A stretch of 64,000 bases of DNA from an uncultured Pelagibacteraceae bacterium (GTDB lineage Bacteria > Pseudomonadota > Alphaproteobacteria > Pelagibacterales > Pelagibacteraceae): NCBI GenBank assembly GCA_902570785.1, contig CACFZK010000002.1, forward strand, positions 1 to 64,000. The letters run 5' to 3'. Shown here one piece after another: positions 25,979 to 30,912 of this stretch. Under the pieces are notes generated by a model that worked only from the letters and a program-made list of their open reading frames with translations, did not search any database and was not told the DNA's origin. Each line of letters opens with the position of its first letter. Position 1 is the stretch's first letter. The position numbers and the translations under genes were made by a program.

Positions 25979-26872
25979 TCACAATAACTTAGAACAATTT
26001 CTATGTAACATTGAATGTAATTCTACAAGTTTATTGAAGTCTTTATTATATCCGCCCCCAAGAACACCACACAGAGGTATTTTATTTGAAAAGAAATTTT
26101 CAACAACTGCCTTATCTCTTTGGTTTATACCATCATCTGTCAATTTTAATTTTCCAAGCTTATCTTGATGATGAACGTCAACTCCAGCTATATAAAAAAC
26201 AAAATCAAAGTTCATTTTATTAAGTATAAACAGGTTATTTTTTAATATTTCAAGATAATCTTTATCCTCTAGCTTTTCTTCAAGTTCTACATCCAGATCA
26301 CTCTTTGATTTTTTTGCTGGATAATTAGTTTTGCAATGCATACTAAATGTAAATATATTTCTATCATTTTTAAAAATCTCAGAGTTTCCATTCCCTTGGT
26401 GAACGTCGAGGTCTAAAATTAAAATATTTTTAATTTTCTTCCGATACTTTAAGTAATTTGCAGCCACTGCCACATCATTAAAAACACAGTAACCCGCTCC
26501 GTAATTATAGGAAGCATGATGACTACCGCCTGCAGTATTACATGCAAGTTTAAAATCTAATGCTAACTTACTCGCTAAAACAGTGCCCCCAGTTGCTAAA
26601 AAAGATCTTTTTATTACACTATCATTTATTGGAAAACCAATTTTAATTTCAGACTTTTTATCTAGAGTTTTATTTTTAATATCATTAATATATTTAGTTG
26701 AATGTGATTTACTTAAAGTCTCAATAGAGCACTCTTTTGGAATAAAGAATTTATTTACTACTTTTTTTTCTAAAAGATAATTTGCTAAAGCAGTAAATTT
26801 TTTTATTGGAAAAATACTATTTTCTTTTATTTTTGCAACATATTCAGGGTGATTGACAATTGGTAATTCCAT
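25979..26872 (-). CDS. Histone-deacetylase-fold amidohydrolase (AcuC / acetylpolyamine amidohydrolase-like)
   Basis: Zinc-dependent deacetylase fold, 297 residues. Visible: the tandem active-site histidines GGSHHASYNYGAGYCVFND, the zinc motif LDLDVHQGNG (Asp-x-His) and the third zinc ligand in AGVDVHHQDKLG. The C-terminal GGGYN glycine-rich loop is present. Bacterial members deacetylate small amides such as acetylpolyamines or protein lysines; the sequence does not decide which. A 50-base gap separates it from the propeller gene downstream. Confidence 0.88.
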   Translation of the reverse strand: MELPIVNHPEYVAKIKENSIFPIKKFTALANYLLEKKVVNKFFIPKECSIETLSKSHSTKYINDIKNKTLDKKSEIKIGFPINDSVIKRSFLATGGTVLASKLALDFKLACNTAGGSHHASYNYGAGYCVFNDVAVAANYLKYRKKIKNILILDLDVHQGNGNSEIFKNDRNIFTFSMHCKTNYPAKKSKSDLDVELEEKLEDKDYLEILKNNLFILNKMNFDFVFYIAGVDVHHQDKLGKLKLTDDGINQRDKAVVENFFSNKIPLCGVLGGGYNKDFNKLVELHSMLHRNCSKLL

Positions 26873-26935
26873 ATTAAAAAAATAATTAGCTTCATCTTGA
26901 TTTTTTTATCAGTTTAACCACTTAGTTTACGCAAC

Positions 26936-27883
26936 CTATTTCCATTTAAAAATACTTCTTAATGTCCATGAATTTTCTTTTTGTAAAACAAAATTATCGA
27001 TATTCTCCTCTTTATTCTTTTCTTCTCTGATAAAAGTGAGAAATTTTAAGAATATACTTGGTAGAAAAATTTTTATTAAGCTTTTAATTTTTTGTTTAAA
27101 GTTAATATTATCTTTTTTCCAATTAGAGAAGCTATTTTTACTTTGTTTCGAATATTTATATGCTTTATCAATAGAATATGATGCATAACTTAGATTAATT
27201 ATATTAAAATTAAAGATATTTGAGATTTTTTCTACACTTTTTTTTGTAAAAAAAATAAGTCTAGGCGAATCATAAGGTCTGTTAAAAAATTTTTTATCAA
27301 AATTATTGTTAGGCACATCTATAAAAACATAAGTATCTTTATGTGAAATCTTCTTCAAGCTATTGAATATATTTAGGTCTGATAGCTGTTGCAGAGTAAG
27401 GGACGAAATAATCAAATCAAATTTTTCTGATATACTATTAAAATCATCATAAACTTTGTATTTTCTACTATTTAATATCCTCTTGCAATTTTGATCTAAT
27501 TCTAACGAACTTAAACTGATATTTTGAAATTTTGATTTAATCAAAAACCCTAGATCTCCAACTCCTGAACCAAAATCGAAAATATTTTTTATATTGTCTA
27601 AATTTATAAATGTACTTAAGTAATTTAAGTAGCTCAAATTTCTAAAATAATAAATATCAGAATTATAATTACTCTTAATTTCATCTGGTCTTCCTTTTGC
27701 TCTATAAATATGTTTGTAAAAATAATTTAATTTGTCCGTATTTGGCATAGGGGAAGCGTATCCAAGATCACATTTTCTGCAATAATTGATTTTTAAATTT
27801 CCAAAAAACTCTACATCACTTTCAACATTAAACTTGTATTCGTCAAATACCGAGTCAGTCTCATTACACAATATACAATTCAT
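26936..27883 (-). CDS. SAM-dependent methyltransferase with N-terminal zinc-binding motif
   Basis: Begins with a four-cysteine motif (CILC near residue 3 and CRKC near residue 36) like the putative zinc-binding domain in front of many sugar and C-methyltransferases, then a class I methyltransferase core with SAM motif I IFDFGSGVGDLGF. The PMP segment after the second CxxC and the late tail rich in aromatic and lysine residues fit enzymes of surface-glycan modification. Substrate unknown. It lies directly outside the outermost tmRNA-end repeat at 27903, so it could belong to the same variable region. Confidence 0.75.
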   Translation of the reverse strand: MNCILCNETDSVFDEYKFNVESDVEFFGNLKINYCRKCDLGYASPMPNTDKLNYFYKHIYRAKGRPDEIKSNYNSDIYYFRNLSYLNYLSTFINLDNIKNIFDFGSGVGDLGFLIKSKFQNISLSSLELDQNCKRILNSRKYKVYDDFNSISEKFDLIISSLTLQQLSDLNIFNSLKKISHKDTYVFIDVPNNNFDKKFFNRPYDSPRLIFFTKKSVEKISNIFNFNIINLSYASYSIDKAYKYSKQSKNSFSNWKKDNINFKQKIKSLIKIFLPSIFLKFLTFIREEKNKEENIDNFVLQKENSWTLRSIFKWK

Positions 27884-27902
27884 AAATTATCAAATTTAAT
27901 AA

Positions 27903-27916
27903 GGGGCGTTCTGTTG
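27903..27916. repeat. Distal att-like core: partial copy of tmRNA 3' end
   Basis: GGGGCGTTCTGTTG is identical to the first 14 bases of the cores at 29154 and 30610; beyond it the sequence diverges (TCCGTCCC). The diverged part still pairs back on the GGGGCG arm (GGGGCG with CGTCCC, one G-U pair), so a hairpin is kept. It would be the original downstream end of the tmRNA gene left behind by integration. Confidence 0.7.
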
Positions 27917-27961
27917 TCCGTCCCAATTCAACTTATAACAGAATATAACACTTTTTGAATA

Positions 27962-27982
27962 GGTACATAATAGGGTACATAA
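27962..27982 (+). repeat. Left arm-like repeats of island 1 (GGTACATAA, two copies)
   Basis: GGTACATAA occurs at 27962 and 27974, a 12-base period, on the same strand. The same GTACATA motif recurs at the opposite end of this island (29085-29106) and was not noticed in island 2. Period and placement suggest integrase arm-type binding sites on one helix face. Confidence 0.55.
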
Positions 27983-28067
27983 ACTTTTGGTCATTTCTTT
28001 GTAATGATTTGAAAATTGATGTAAATAGTTATTAATATAAATTTAAAAATTAATATTTAAAGGAATT

Positions 28068-29084
28068 GTGATTGATAATAATTACTTTTTTATTGAAAAC
28101 CTAAATTCAGTAGTATTTCTTGGTCAAAGTAATGTTTTTTCTGAGCTAATTAAAGTAAATAATTCACTTAAATTAGACACTTTAATAATTACCAGTTCTC
28201 ACCAATCAAAACTAATAGATAAAAAAATTGACTACAAAATATTTGATACGTTAGATGATAAATTTAAAAAATTTATTAATAAAAATATCAAGGTTAAAAA
28301 TACAATTTTTGTTAGTATTGGCGCTAGATATATTTTTAAAAAAGATACAATTCAAAATTTTTTTTCAAATAACTTAGTAAATTTTCATGGAGCAAGATTA
28401 CCTTTAGACTCTGGGGGCGGAGGTTATTCATGGAAAATTATGAGAGAAGATAGAATAGACAATCAACTTGTACATTTAGTAAATGAAGGAATAGATGCTG
28501 GTCCTATTATTGATAATAATTTATCTTTATTTCCAAAATATTGTCAAATTCCAATTGACTTTGAAAAATACAGACTAGAAAAATTTATAGATTTTTACAC
28601 AAAATTTTTAAAAAAAATTATAAATGGAAAAAAATTTGATTTAAAACCTCAAATTAATTATCTAGGCAGGTATAATCCAAGATTAAACACCGAAACCGAC
28701 GGTTTAATAAACTGGGATATGGATTCTTATGATTTGTATAATTTTATTAATGCATTTGATGAACCTTATAAAGGCGCTTCTACTTTCTTAAATAATGGAA
28801 ATTTTGGAAAATTGTATTTAAAAAAAGTTCATCTTCATGGAGGAGATAGTTCAAATCACCCATATATGTCAGGAATAGTTTCCAGACATGATAAAAATTG
28901 GATAGTTGTATCTACAAAATCTAAGCATATGATTTTAATTGAAGAAGTATTAGATAAAAAAGGTAATAATATAATCTCAAAAATAAAAGTAGGTGATAGA
29001 TTTTACACACCTTATGGAGAACTCGAAAAATCAAAAAAAATTAAAACAACTTTTAATTCTAAAGGATTAAAAGAACCATCTTAA
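28068..29084 (+). CDS. Formyltransferase-family protein (island 1 cargo)
   Basis: A 338-residue protein with a Rossmann-like N terminus and the formyltransferase catalytic triad pattern: Asn in VNFHGARLP, His in LVHLV and Asp in EGIDAGPII. This is the fold of methionyl-tRNA, GAR and sugar-nucleotide N-formyltransferases. The GGGGYSW segment and a C-terminal part unlike the Fmt tRNA-binding domain point to a sugar or small-molecule formyltransferase acting on a surface glycan precursor; that is inference. Start is GTG 28068 behind AAAGGA. The stop codon is immediately followed by the right arm-like repeats, so the gene fills the island. Confidence 0.75.
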   Translation: MIDNNYFFIENLNSVVFLGQSNVFSELIKVNNSLKLDTLIITSSHQSKLIDKKIDYKIFDTLDDKFKKFINKNIKVKNTIFVSIGARYIFKKDTIQNFFSNNLVNFHGARLPLDSGGGGYSWKIMREDRIDNQLVHLVNEGIDAGPIIDNNLSLFPKYCQIPIDFEKYRLEKFIDFYTKFLKKIINGKKFDLKPQINYLGRYNPRLNTETDGLINWDMDSYDLYNFINAFDEPYKGASTFLNNGNFGKLYLKKVHLHGGDSSNHPYMSGIVSRHDKNWIVVSTKSKHMILIEEVLDKKGNNIISKIKVGDRFYTPYGELEKSKKIKTTFNSKGLKEPS

Positions 29085-29106
29085 AGTACATAGTAGGTAC
29101 ATAGTA
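29085..29106 (+). repeat. Right arm-like repeats of island 1 (GTACATAGTA, two copies)
   Basis: Two tandem 11-base units, AGTACATAGTA (29085-29095) and GGTACATAGTA (29096-29106), start on the base after the formyltransferase stop. They share GTACATA with the left arm-like repeats, in the same orientation, and lie 47 bases from the core at 29154. Confidence 0.55.
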
Positions 29107-29153
29107 AATAACTTTCAGATTTTTGTTGGAAATAAAAAGTTATCTAATTTTTA

Positions 29154-29183
29154 GGGGCGTTCTGTTGCCAGGTGCCCCGGACC
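29154..29183. repeat. Middle att-like core: 30-base copy of tmRNA 3' end
   Basis: Identical over 30 bases to 30610-30639, starting GGGGCGTTCTGTTGCC and ending CCCCGGACC; resemblance then fades after a few more bases. It includes the GGGGC/GCCCC hairpin that ends the tmRNA gene. It serves as the right boundary of island 1 and the left boundary of island 2. Confidence 0.8.
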
Positions 29184-29249
29184 TCATTTCGTTAATCCTT
29201 GTTATATAATAATTATTTTACAACCTAAAGCCCAAAACTGGTTCTTCAC

Positions 29250-29279
29250 TGCGTCGGTATTGCGTCAGAAATTGCGTCA
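29250..29279 (+). repeat. Left arm-like repeats of island 2 (TGCGTC, three copies)
   Basis: TGCGTC starts at 29250, 29261 and 29273, giving spacings of 11 and 12 bases, all on the same strand; the last two extend to TGCGTCAG. The repeats end just before the first gene of the island operon and may also overlap its promoter. Confidence 0.55.
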
Positions 29280-29294
29280 GGGTAGAATGAGATC

Positions 29295-29615
29295 ATGAGT
29301 CAAGAAATTGAACAGTTCATTCCACTAATAATTGTTGTAGCTGGTATTTGGCTAATTCTGAGATATTACAGAAACAAAAAGGGGATCACTGGTAAAGATG
29401 ATGGTTCTGATGAAATTAAAAAAGCTGCTTTCAAAACAGGTAAAGTCGTTAACAAAAGTTTTTTAGCCAACAAAAAATTAATAAAAATCGGCGCAGGAAT
29501 AATTTTAATTATCATAGTTTATCAATATTTTTCACCGTATCAGGATTGCAAAAGAGCTTTAAAAAAAGATGGTAGAAGTGCACTTTTTATAGAGAGGACT
29601 TGTAAAGGTAAATGA
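29295..29615 (+). CDS. Small two-helix membrane protein, unknown function (island 2)
   Basis: 106 residues; not recognised. A membrane segment at about 9-24 is followed by a charged loop (RYYRNKKG to ANKKLIK) and a second membrane segment at about 66-82, then a short tail with two cysteines (QDC and ERTC). The loop is strongly basic, so both termini may face the periplasm. It is the first gene of a four-gene operon, with ATG 29295 some 15 bases after the arm-like repeats. It overlaps the next gene by four bases (ATGA). Confidence 0.6.
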   Translation: MSQEIEQFIPLIIVVAGIWLILRYYRNKKGITGKDDGSDEIKKAAFKTGKVVNKSFLANKKLIKIGAGIILIIIVYQYFSPYQDCKRALKKDGRSALFIERTCKGK

Positions 29616-29869
29616 CGTACGGTATTTCTCCATTTTTCATCCTAATCTTAGGTTTAATATTTTCGACCATCGCTGGGGTTCTTAACGAAGACCAAAATTT
29701 GTTTTTTATCTTAATGGGTTTATTTGGTTTTTTTGCATTTATGGGTTTTATAGAACAAAAAAAAGAATTAGAAGATGAAAATAAAAGTTTAAGGGATCAA
29801 TTAGATAATCGACCATTTTTTATGCCATCAACAAAAAGAAGGAAGAGAAAAAGAAGAAAGAAAAAATGA
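29612..29869 (+). CDS. Small two-helix membrane protein with polybasic tail, unknown function (island 2)
   Basis: 85 residues; not recognised. Two closely spaced hydrophobic stretches (about 5-22 and 28-46) form a hairpin, followed by a short helical charged segment (EQKKELEDENKSLRDQ, coiled-coil-like) and a C terminus made almost only of lysine and arginine (from about residue 74). The tail would sit at the cytoplasmic membrane face or bind nucleic acid. It overlaps both neighbours by four bases, so it is translated with them. Confidence 0.58.
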   Translation: MTYGISPFFILILGLIFSTIAGVLNEDQNLFFILMGLFGFFAFMGFIEQKKELEDENKSLRDQLDNRPFFMPSTKRRKRKRRKKK

Positions 29870-30171
29870 AAAAACTTTTAGCGATCGTGGTTCTGGGTTT
29901 GTTGTGGAGCGGCAACGCTAAAGCTGATCACTATAAAACTGGAATTATGTTCGGAGATCCATACGTTATAGGTTGTATCTATGATTTATTAGATGCGAGT
30001 TTTGGTTCAAAATGTGCTCAAAGATCTATTAAATTTTATTTTAATGAGAGAAAACACAGGGGAAGTTATGATCGTGCCTATAATAATTGTTATTCGTATT
30101 TGAGAGAACTTGGTTACCGAAAATATAACAATTTTAATAACGAAACTTATCAAATTAGCTGCAGTGATTAA
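29866..30171 (+). CDS. Small exported cysteine-containing protein, unknown function (island 2)
   Basis: 101 residues with a clear Sec signal peptide (MKKLLAIVVLGLLWSGNAKA, cleavage near residue 20-21). The mature part is about 80 residues with four cysteines (in GCIYD, KCAQR, NCYSY and ISCSD), enough for two disulfides, and is rich in tyrosine and arginine. Not recognised. It overlaps the preceding gene by four bases and the following gene by eight. Confidence 0.6.
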   Translation: MKKLLAIVVLGLLWSGNAKADHYKTGIMFGDPYVIGCIYDLLDASFGSKCAQRSIKFYFNERKHRGSYDRAYNNCYSYLRELGYRKYNNFNNETYQISCSD

Positions 30172-30535
30172 AAATTTTTTTCTAATAACGATTTTCAGCC
30201 TATTAAGTTTTAACGTTAGCTTTGCTGATTGCACAGATGATATAAATTTTGTTTGGAGATATGGAGACAAAACAAAATCATATATATTAATAGATTATGC
30301 GAGCAAAAATGATAAACCAATTATAATAACCAAAGCATATGTTTATACAAAAGATAAAAAAATTGTTAAACAAATCAGCAAAGATTATTTATTAGAACCA
30401 TTTAGAAAATCTAACAGAAATCTCGCAGAATTAGCTAATGAAGGTAATCCAAAAGAGTCAGTCACATTTATTAATTTGAGAGGTTATAATACAGAAGTGA
30501 TCGCATCCGTTGGCTATGCGTGTAGATACAAATAA
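30164..30535 (+). CDS. Small exported protein, unknown function (island 2)
   Basis: About 123 residues from GTG 30164; an upstream ATG at 30110 in the same frame would bury the signal peptide. With the GTG start there is a good signal peptide (IKNFFLITIFSLLSFNVSFA) and then a mature protein that begins DCTDDINFVW and ends in a second cysteine (GYACRYK), suggesting one disulfide between the ends. The body has alternating strands typical of a small beta domain. Last gene before the right arm-like repeats. Function unknown. Confidence 0.58.
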   Translation: MIKNFFLITIFSLLSFNVSFADCTDDINFVWRYGDKTKSYILIDYASKNDKPIIITKAYVYTKDKKIVKQISKDYLLEPFRKSNRNLAELANEGNPKESVTFINLRGYNTEVIASVGYACRYK

Positions 30536-30546
30536 TTTTTAATCAC

Positions 30547-30564
30547 TGCGTCCATAGTGCGTCA
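30547..30564 (+). repeat. Right arm-like repeats of island 2 (TGCGTC, two copies)
   Basis: TGCGTC at 30547 and 30558, 11 bases apart, same strand as the copies at 29250-29279. They lie 12 bases after the last gene of the island and 45 bases from the core at 30610, nearly the same core distance as the island 1 arms. Confidence 0.55.
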
Positions 30565-30609
30565 CAAAATTTTTAATTGTTGGTATTAAAGAAGAATCAG
30601 AGATTTAAA

Positions 30610-30639
30610 GGGGCGTTCTGTTGCCAGGTGCCCCGGACC
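30610..30639. repeat. Proximal att-like core inside the tmRNA 3' end
   Basis: The intact tmRNA 3' end: GGGGC and GCCCC form a hairpin, followed on the minus strand by TTTAAAT. The 30 bases are repeated exactly at 29154-29183 and the first 14 at 27903-27916. Integration here keeps the gene whole because each island supplies a copy of the gene end. Confidence 0.82.
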
Positions 30640-30664
30640 CCGTTTACTTAATTAACAAGTTAAT

Positions 30665-30694
30665 TAAGCAGCAAGTGCAAATTTATTATTTGCA
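30665..30694 (-). other. tmRNA tag reading frame (ANNKFALAA-stop)
   Basis: Nine codons GCA AAT AAT AAA TTT GCA, then CTT GCT GCT and TAA, read from the minus strand inside the tmRNA coding piece. The tag ends in the LAA typical of ssrA tags recognised by ClpXP. The resume codon is inferred to be GCA by alignment to the usual A-start of tags. The stop codon lies in the right arm of the 9-bp hairpin that follows. Confidence 0.88.
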
Positions 30695-30912
30695 TTTATA
30701 ATTAGCCCGTTACGTCGGAACCATCTCGAACGAAAGAATAGCTTTTAGACACTCGTCGATTCTGATTCACCCCCATAAGTTGTAAATGGTGGAGGTGGTG
30801 GGTACTGCCCCCACGTCCGCAATGTTTATTACGAAACTCGTTTATCGTCATAGTTGGAAAACCAACAGATATAATATAAAATCAAAAAAAAAAGATTCAA
30901 TAAATATTTCAA

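Follow-up and report, generated by a model that had tools for sequence, protein, structure and literature searches.

Four small genes that lie beside the tmRNA gene of an uncultured Pelagibacteraceae bacterium raise the question of what kind of element they form, how it came to its position and what its genes do. The DNA analysed, referred to here as the window, is a stretch of 64 000 nucleotides (nt) (GenBank assembly GCA_902570785.1, contig CACFZK010000002.1, positions 1 to 64 000, forward strand). In a sequence-only reading of the window, the four genes (29295-30535) were described as the sole cargo of a mobile cassette, island 2, devoted to the cell envelope.

Attachment site and genes of island 2

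Island 2 is 1.46 kb long. At each of its boundaries is a perfect 30 nt copy of the 3' end of ssrA, the tmRNA gene, which is permuted and in two pieces. This gene (30607-30904, minus strand, proteolysis tag ANNKFALAA) was found with ARAGORN and with Rfam (alpha_tmRNA, RF01849, 30904-30607 minus, E 5.9e-63, 221.9 bits). The copy proximal to ssrA (30610-30639) is the 3' end of the ssrA coding piece, as defined by the repeat and the Rfam match, and the distal copy (29154-29183, GGGGCGTTCTGTTGCCAGGTGCCCCGGACC) is an exact 30 nt repeat of it; no perfect repeat of this kind is expected by chance (0 expected). As the right copy is inside ssrA, this gene is the attachment site (att) and integration target, and the left copy is a displaced fragment of its 3' end.

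Within the att repeats are direct repeats of the motif TGCGTC, namely three left arms (29250, 29261 and 29273, together 29250-29278, with spacings of 11 and 12 nt) and two right arms (30547-30563, spacing 11 nt). Again, 0 occurrences of the pairs at 29250-29266 and 30547-30563 are expected by chance. A core, direct arm repeats on both sides and helical spacing are the features of an attP site for a lambda-type tyrosine integrase, and all of them are present here. The distal att copy and the left arms are separated by a conserved left-end sequence (CTCATTTCGTTAATCCTTGTTATATAATAATTATTTTACAACCTAAA..., 29184-29249) that cassettes of type F1 (see below) have in common and that was found in 15 cassettes. 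A putative promoter, TTGCGT-17 nt-TAGAAT (29260-29288), which was read from the sequence and was not listed by a generic sigma-70 scan, overlaps the left arms and ends 6 nt before the ATG of the first gene.

The four genes are all on the plus strand and occupy the whole interior between the arm repeats, as had been claimed, and the start-stop overlaps of 4, 4 and 8 nt that were taken to join them were also confirmed. In 500 shuffles, ORFs of 85 aa or more on the same strand numbered 0.04 on average and never more than 2, against the four observed. ORF1 (29295-29615, 106 aa) and ORF2 (29612-29869, 85 aa) are predicted two-helix membrane proteins, each with two membrane-like hydropathy windows (starting from residues 8 and 62 in ORF1 and from residues 8 and 31 in ORF2), and ORF2 has a polybasic C-terminal end. 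ORF3 (29866-30171, 101 aa) and ORF4 (30164-30535, 123 aa) are predicted to be exported, as each has a single N-terminal, signal-like hydrophobic window, and they contain four and two cysteines, respectively. The start of ORF4 is most likely the GTG at 30164, which gives the 8 nt overlap and a typical signal peptide. These features agree with the original description of two membrane proteins, one with a polybasic tail, and two small secreted proteins with cysteines.

Cassette arrays at ssrA in the SAR11 family

Beside ssrA is a tandem array of cassettes, to which island 2 belongs. The neighbouring cassette, island 1 (27903-29153, plus strand), begins with a partial att (27903-27916), carries arm repeats of a different motif, GTACATA (left, 27963 and 27975; right, 29086 and 29097), and contains a formyltransferase-like gene (28068-29084). 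The next segment (26877-27902, minus strand) is probably an older cassette with the layout of the armless cassettes described below. It contains a methyltransferase-like gene (26936-27883) whose ATG and the att at 27903 are some 20 nt apart, and the segment is missing in three other loci (L061, L066 and L071), where the gene equivalent to 25979-26872 directly adjoins the att.

A 15 nt core of the att was found in 230 of 297 SAR11-family genomes and in at least two copies in 106 of them, where the 297 are species representatives only and include incomplete as well as single-cell genomes. A reversed-pattern control returned 0 among the matches listed. Sixty loci, most with several core copies, were retrieved and, together with the window locus, these 61 loci yielded 149 cassettes with a median length of 883 bp and mostly one to four genes. 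With variable cassettes in tandem, bounded by the repeated 3' end of an RNA gene, the loci correspond to additive flexible genomic islands. A clean empty ssrA site was not found; the genomes with a single core copy are cut by contig ends, have the end of another cassette or have a different neighbourhood. Two cassettes stand out for their size. An F1-type cassette of 6.4 kb (L100:2529-8534) carries a type I restriction-modification system, and 13.7 kb with surface-polysaccharide type genes lie between the att copies of an unusually large one (L063, oriented position 1672).

The left ends of the cassettes fall into types, island 2 belonging to type F1, and cassettes of one type have strongly conserved ends; the types are regular-expression bins, for which some mis-assignment is likely. 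Thirteen contigs contain a 28 nt part of the F1 left end, and every one of them has Pelagibacteraceae in its title. These contigs have single-cell style isolate names, which makes assembly chimerism unlikely, and one title says MAG. Only a single genome was seen to contain island 2 itself. The promoter layout of island 2, overlapping the left arms, is present in 37 of 57 F1 and F2 cassettes, compared with 4.5 in mononucleotide shuffles.

Many cassettes have lambda-like arm repeats that share one sequence at both ends but differ between cassettes. For 87 cassettes of types F1 to F3, the match between left and right arm motifs scored 2.86 within the same cassette, compared with 1.35 (sd 0.16) when the pairing was shuffled and 1.79 (sd 0.16) when it was shuffled within types, and 2.86 was reached by none of 1000 shuffles. 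Arms at both ends are not universal. F4 cassettes have left repeats only, and many short antiparallel cassettes have no arm repeats. In 37 of these armless antiparallel cassettes the start codon is a median of 21 nt from the ssrA-nearest att, a distance that suggests reliance on transcription of ssrA.

Comparison of four genome pairs indicates that cassettes are common to distant relatives. Cassettes were 99.7, 94.5, 92.5 and 99.7 % identical where the ssrA-side flanks were 85, 77-84, 75 and 81 % identical, respectively, and in three of the four pairs near-identical cassettes cross genera. An armless cassette has also spread between genera (L058/L079).

How the cassettes may move

No tyrosine integrase ORF was detected in the 61 loci with a profile derived from 52 tyrosine recombinases of SAR11, most of them of the resident type, a profile that divergent integrases could escape. 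A serine recombinase was likewise absent from the window cassette and is not among the 25 Pfam families listed for the cassette proteins. As none of the cassettes examined has an integrase of its own, they probably borrow one. We consider it likely, from sequence comparisons, that the cassettes are cis-mobilizable mini-islands that are moved by integrases supplied in trans, for which the near-identical cassettes of diverged genomes are indirect support. With the att repeats in ssrA and the arm repeats at both ends in support of the mobile-cassette reading, island 2 is probably a minimal site-specific cassette, a tyrosine-integrase attachment site within which a four-gene envelope operon takes the place of the integrase gene. 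An integrase whose arm specificity matches, brought in by a co-infecting phage or other element, would excise the cassette as a circle, and the circle would insert at the 3' end of ssrA. Insertion would restore that 3' end, so that cassettes can stack up, and the putative promoter within the left arms would allow immediate expression of the cargo.

Integrases with arms of this kind exist in SAR11, as shown by those located beside tRNA genes (L244, L274 and L275), where two short repeats 11-12 nt apart directly precede int; in one case the repeat is GCGTC. Of the extra integrases in a few genomes, several are at tRNA genes, and none of those checked was near an ssrA core. An integrase or phage with both the core and the arms of island 2 was not found, and a phage collection gave no useful match to the ssrA region. 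In IMG/VR, the core pattern matched only complete viral tmRNA genes or unrelated sequences, a shorter core pattern matched, among the matches listed, mostly unrelated contigs, the left-end and right-end patterns had no match, and the left end of island 2, as a 29-mer, was absent. A viral origin is therefore unsupported by IMG/VR. Eight IMG/VR contigs (L118, L120-L122, L124-L126 and L128) contain a complete permuted tmRNA gene that is SAR11-like.

An alternative without an integrase is that homologous recombination, acting on the repeated cores and the conserved ends of about 100 bp, spreads the cassettes. The strong conservation of ends within a type and the spread of armless cassettes (L058/L079) are consistent with this explanation. 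However, it leaves unexplained both the match between the arm motifs at the two ends of a cassette and the fixed helical spacing of the arms, and we regard it as unlikely.

Less probable still is that the cassettes are decayed, immobile remnants of integrase-bearing phages or islands that have accreted passively, which is how cis-mobilizable elements (CIMEs) arise in other bacteria (PMC5704250). The missing integrase genes would then be accounted for. However, near-identical cassettes are found in diverged genomes, the paired arms are intact, the cassettes are compact with no visible phage debris, and no integrase-bearing intermediate was seen.

Equally improbable is an integron-like arrangement in which the ssrA core is served in trans by the one tyrosine recombinase resident in SAR11. 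Most SAR11-family genomes encode exactly one PF00589 protein (309-325 aa), so that no other resident enzyme is visible, and the existence of armless cassettes would suit an enzyme of this kind. However, the resident recombinase has no obvious arm-binding domain, its gene is away from the array, and the arms would go unexplained. It also scored below the XerC, XerD and integron-integrase cut-offs, in the last case by a wide margin (33 versus 265 bits). Most SAR11-family genomes also have no XerC/XerD pair at E up to 1e-10, and their single PF00589 protein (G000:C1:29264-29803, L261, and relatives) is possibly a single-recombinase Xer system.

The reading in which integrases are supplied in trans can be set beside several known systems. 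The SAR11 arrays resemble integron cassette arrays in consisting of small cassettes with accessory genes, some of them promoterless. They differ in that no intI adjoins the array, no integrase ORF having been found in the 61 loci. The site, too, seems to be of another kind than attC, as it lies at the 3' end of an RNA gene and has arms of the lambda type. Tycheposons and phage satellites (PICI, P4-like) likewise occupy tRNA or tmRNA genes and carry defence or niche genes. Phage satellites carry their own recombinase or packaging functions, while island 2 has no integrase, regulators or packaging genes of its own. Tycheposons, in the passages of PMC10872708 that concern them, carry their own recombinase, xerD. 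SAR11 hypervariable regions had been reported in 2007 to be without an integron signature (PMC2217521).

The Dehalococcoides ssrA islands are tandem, bounded by direct repeats of the ssrA 3' end and located in a streamlined genome, and 15 of 31 are without an integration module, for which cis-mobilization has been proposed (PMC3146451, PMC2764846). The SAR11 cassettes share the tandem arrangement, the ssrA 3' repeats and the streamlined genome. However, the Dehalococcoides modules encode a serine recombinase (DsiB) and the vcr islands are about 12 kb, whereas the SAR11 cassettes are about 0.9 kb, have a core and arms of the tyrosine type and, in all those examined, lack a tyrosine integrase. 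In 'Ca. Methylopumilus', additive flexible genomic islands of 330 bp to 42 kb are bounded by tRNA-Lys repeats, with 79-80 % of unknown function, according to passages of PMC10872708; in SAR11 the target is tmRNA rather than tRNA-Lys. The same passages make no mention of two-armed ends, matching arm motifs or an arm-embedded promoter.

CIMEs keep their att sites, have lost integrase and transfer genes, and accrete in tandem (PMC5704250), and the SAR11 cassettes have att sites, lack integrase and transfer genes and are arranged in tandem. Island 2 is flanked by attL and attR in the target gene and contains only its four small genes, with no integration or transfer gene and no member of a known family. 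However, CIMEs are described as decay products (PMC5704250), whereas SAR11 cassettes seem normally to exist without an integrase. The literature searched, from which many subscription papers are absent, contained no account of such arrays at ssrA in SAR11.

Cargo of the cassettes and its significance for SAR11

Using a crude rule, signal-peptide-like N-termini were found in 45 % of cassette ORFs and 16 % of flanking ORFs (47 and 20 %, respectively, for ORFs below 200 aa). The proposal of an envelope-devoted cassette stands to the extent that island 2 fits this wider cargo pattern; what its proteins do is a prediction. Pfam and PADLOC searches of 133 cassette proteins returned, among others, type I restriction systems, DNA methyltransferases, NERD-UvrD, Mrr/MrcB nucleases and PD-Lambda-1. 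By eye, one cassette protein (L104:7294-9744) also has a caspase-like peptidase region.

The four proteins of island 2 had been said to match no known family, and the searches bear this out: none had a useful match in Pfam, PHROGs, NCBIfam or PADLOC, where all matches were weak and none was close to the cut-off. For known superinfection-exclusion or defence families, PADLOC gave no match with an E value of 1 or below, and the PHROG matches were weak. The set of four has no relatives in 31 genomes of the genus or in the 297 of the family, and no convincing full-length relatives of three of the genes were found among the latter. The signal peptide of ORF3 resembles that of many SAR11 cassette proteins, but these matches were rejected as true relatives because the similarity is confined to the signal peptide, and mature ORF3 had no match outside the window genome among the loci examined. 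ORF4 belongs to a family of small exported SAR11 proteins, with relatives that are 26-28 % identical and share its cysteines. These relatives were found at ssrA, in cassettes of L080 and L084, and also in L113, where small exported proteins are encoded in a run. As they have other partners there, the four genes are not a fixed set, and the suggestion that they might always occur together did not hold. The run (L113:551-4709) is away from ssrA and comprises some twelve small genes in a row, many of them encoding signal peptides and cysteines, and it includes relatives of ssrA cassette proteins. Structure models of ORF3 and ORF4 (pLDDT near 50) were too poor for a fold search.

The two membrane proteins and the two exported cysteine-containing proteins may act together at the envelope, a role read from their predicted features. 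An envelope-level exclusion role is plausible, and action against phage entry is the most likely single function, though one that we put forward tentatively; otherwise they may act against a competitor or have some other envelope role. Surface-receptor modification, superinfection exclusion and toxin-immunity, the roles first proposed, are candidate functions for the four genes. A toxin-immunity or small-protein competition set would suit two exported cysteine-containing proteins paired with two membrane proteins, as well as the occurrence of the ORF4 family in clusters of small exported proteins. However, no toxin or immunity family was matched by any of the four in the profile libraries, and we think such a set doubtful. 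A conserved housekeeping operon adjoining ssrA by chance is rejected, since the set has no relatives in the libraries or in the 31 genus and 297 family genomes, and neither a core operon at a fixed non-island locus nor a housekeeping family emerged from the latter.

SAR11 bacteria are among the most abundant in the ocean and have genomes that are among the most streamlined, yet little is understood of how they acquire accessory and defence genes. With a cassette site that is both common and recognisable, and whose cargo includes defence and envelope genes, this question becomes testable, including which phage or element is the source of the integrase and whether arm dialects predict which cassettes move together. 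Cassettes with a borrowed integrase could be a hidden route by which SAR11 swaps defence and surface genes. It is possible, and we suggest it with some reserve, that SAR11 has a dedicated integrase-free exchange of standardised cassettes with several arm 'dialects', an arm-embedded promoter and one RNA-gene site, served by phage or satellite integrases. If so, a streamlined lineage would be able to trade surface and defence genes much as integrons allow, with no recombinase of its own to maintain for the purpose.
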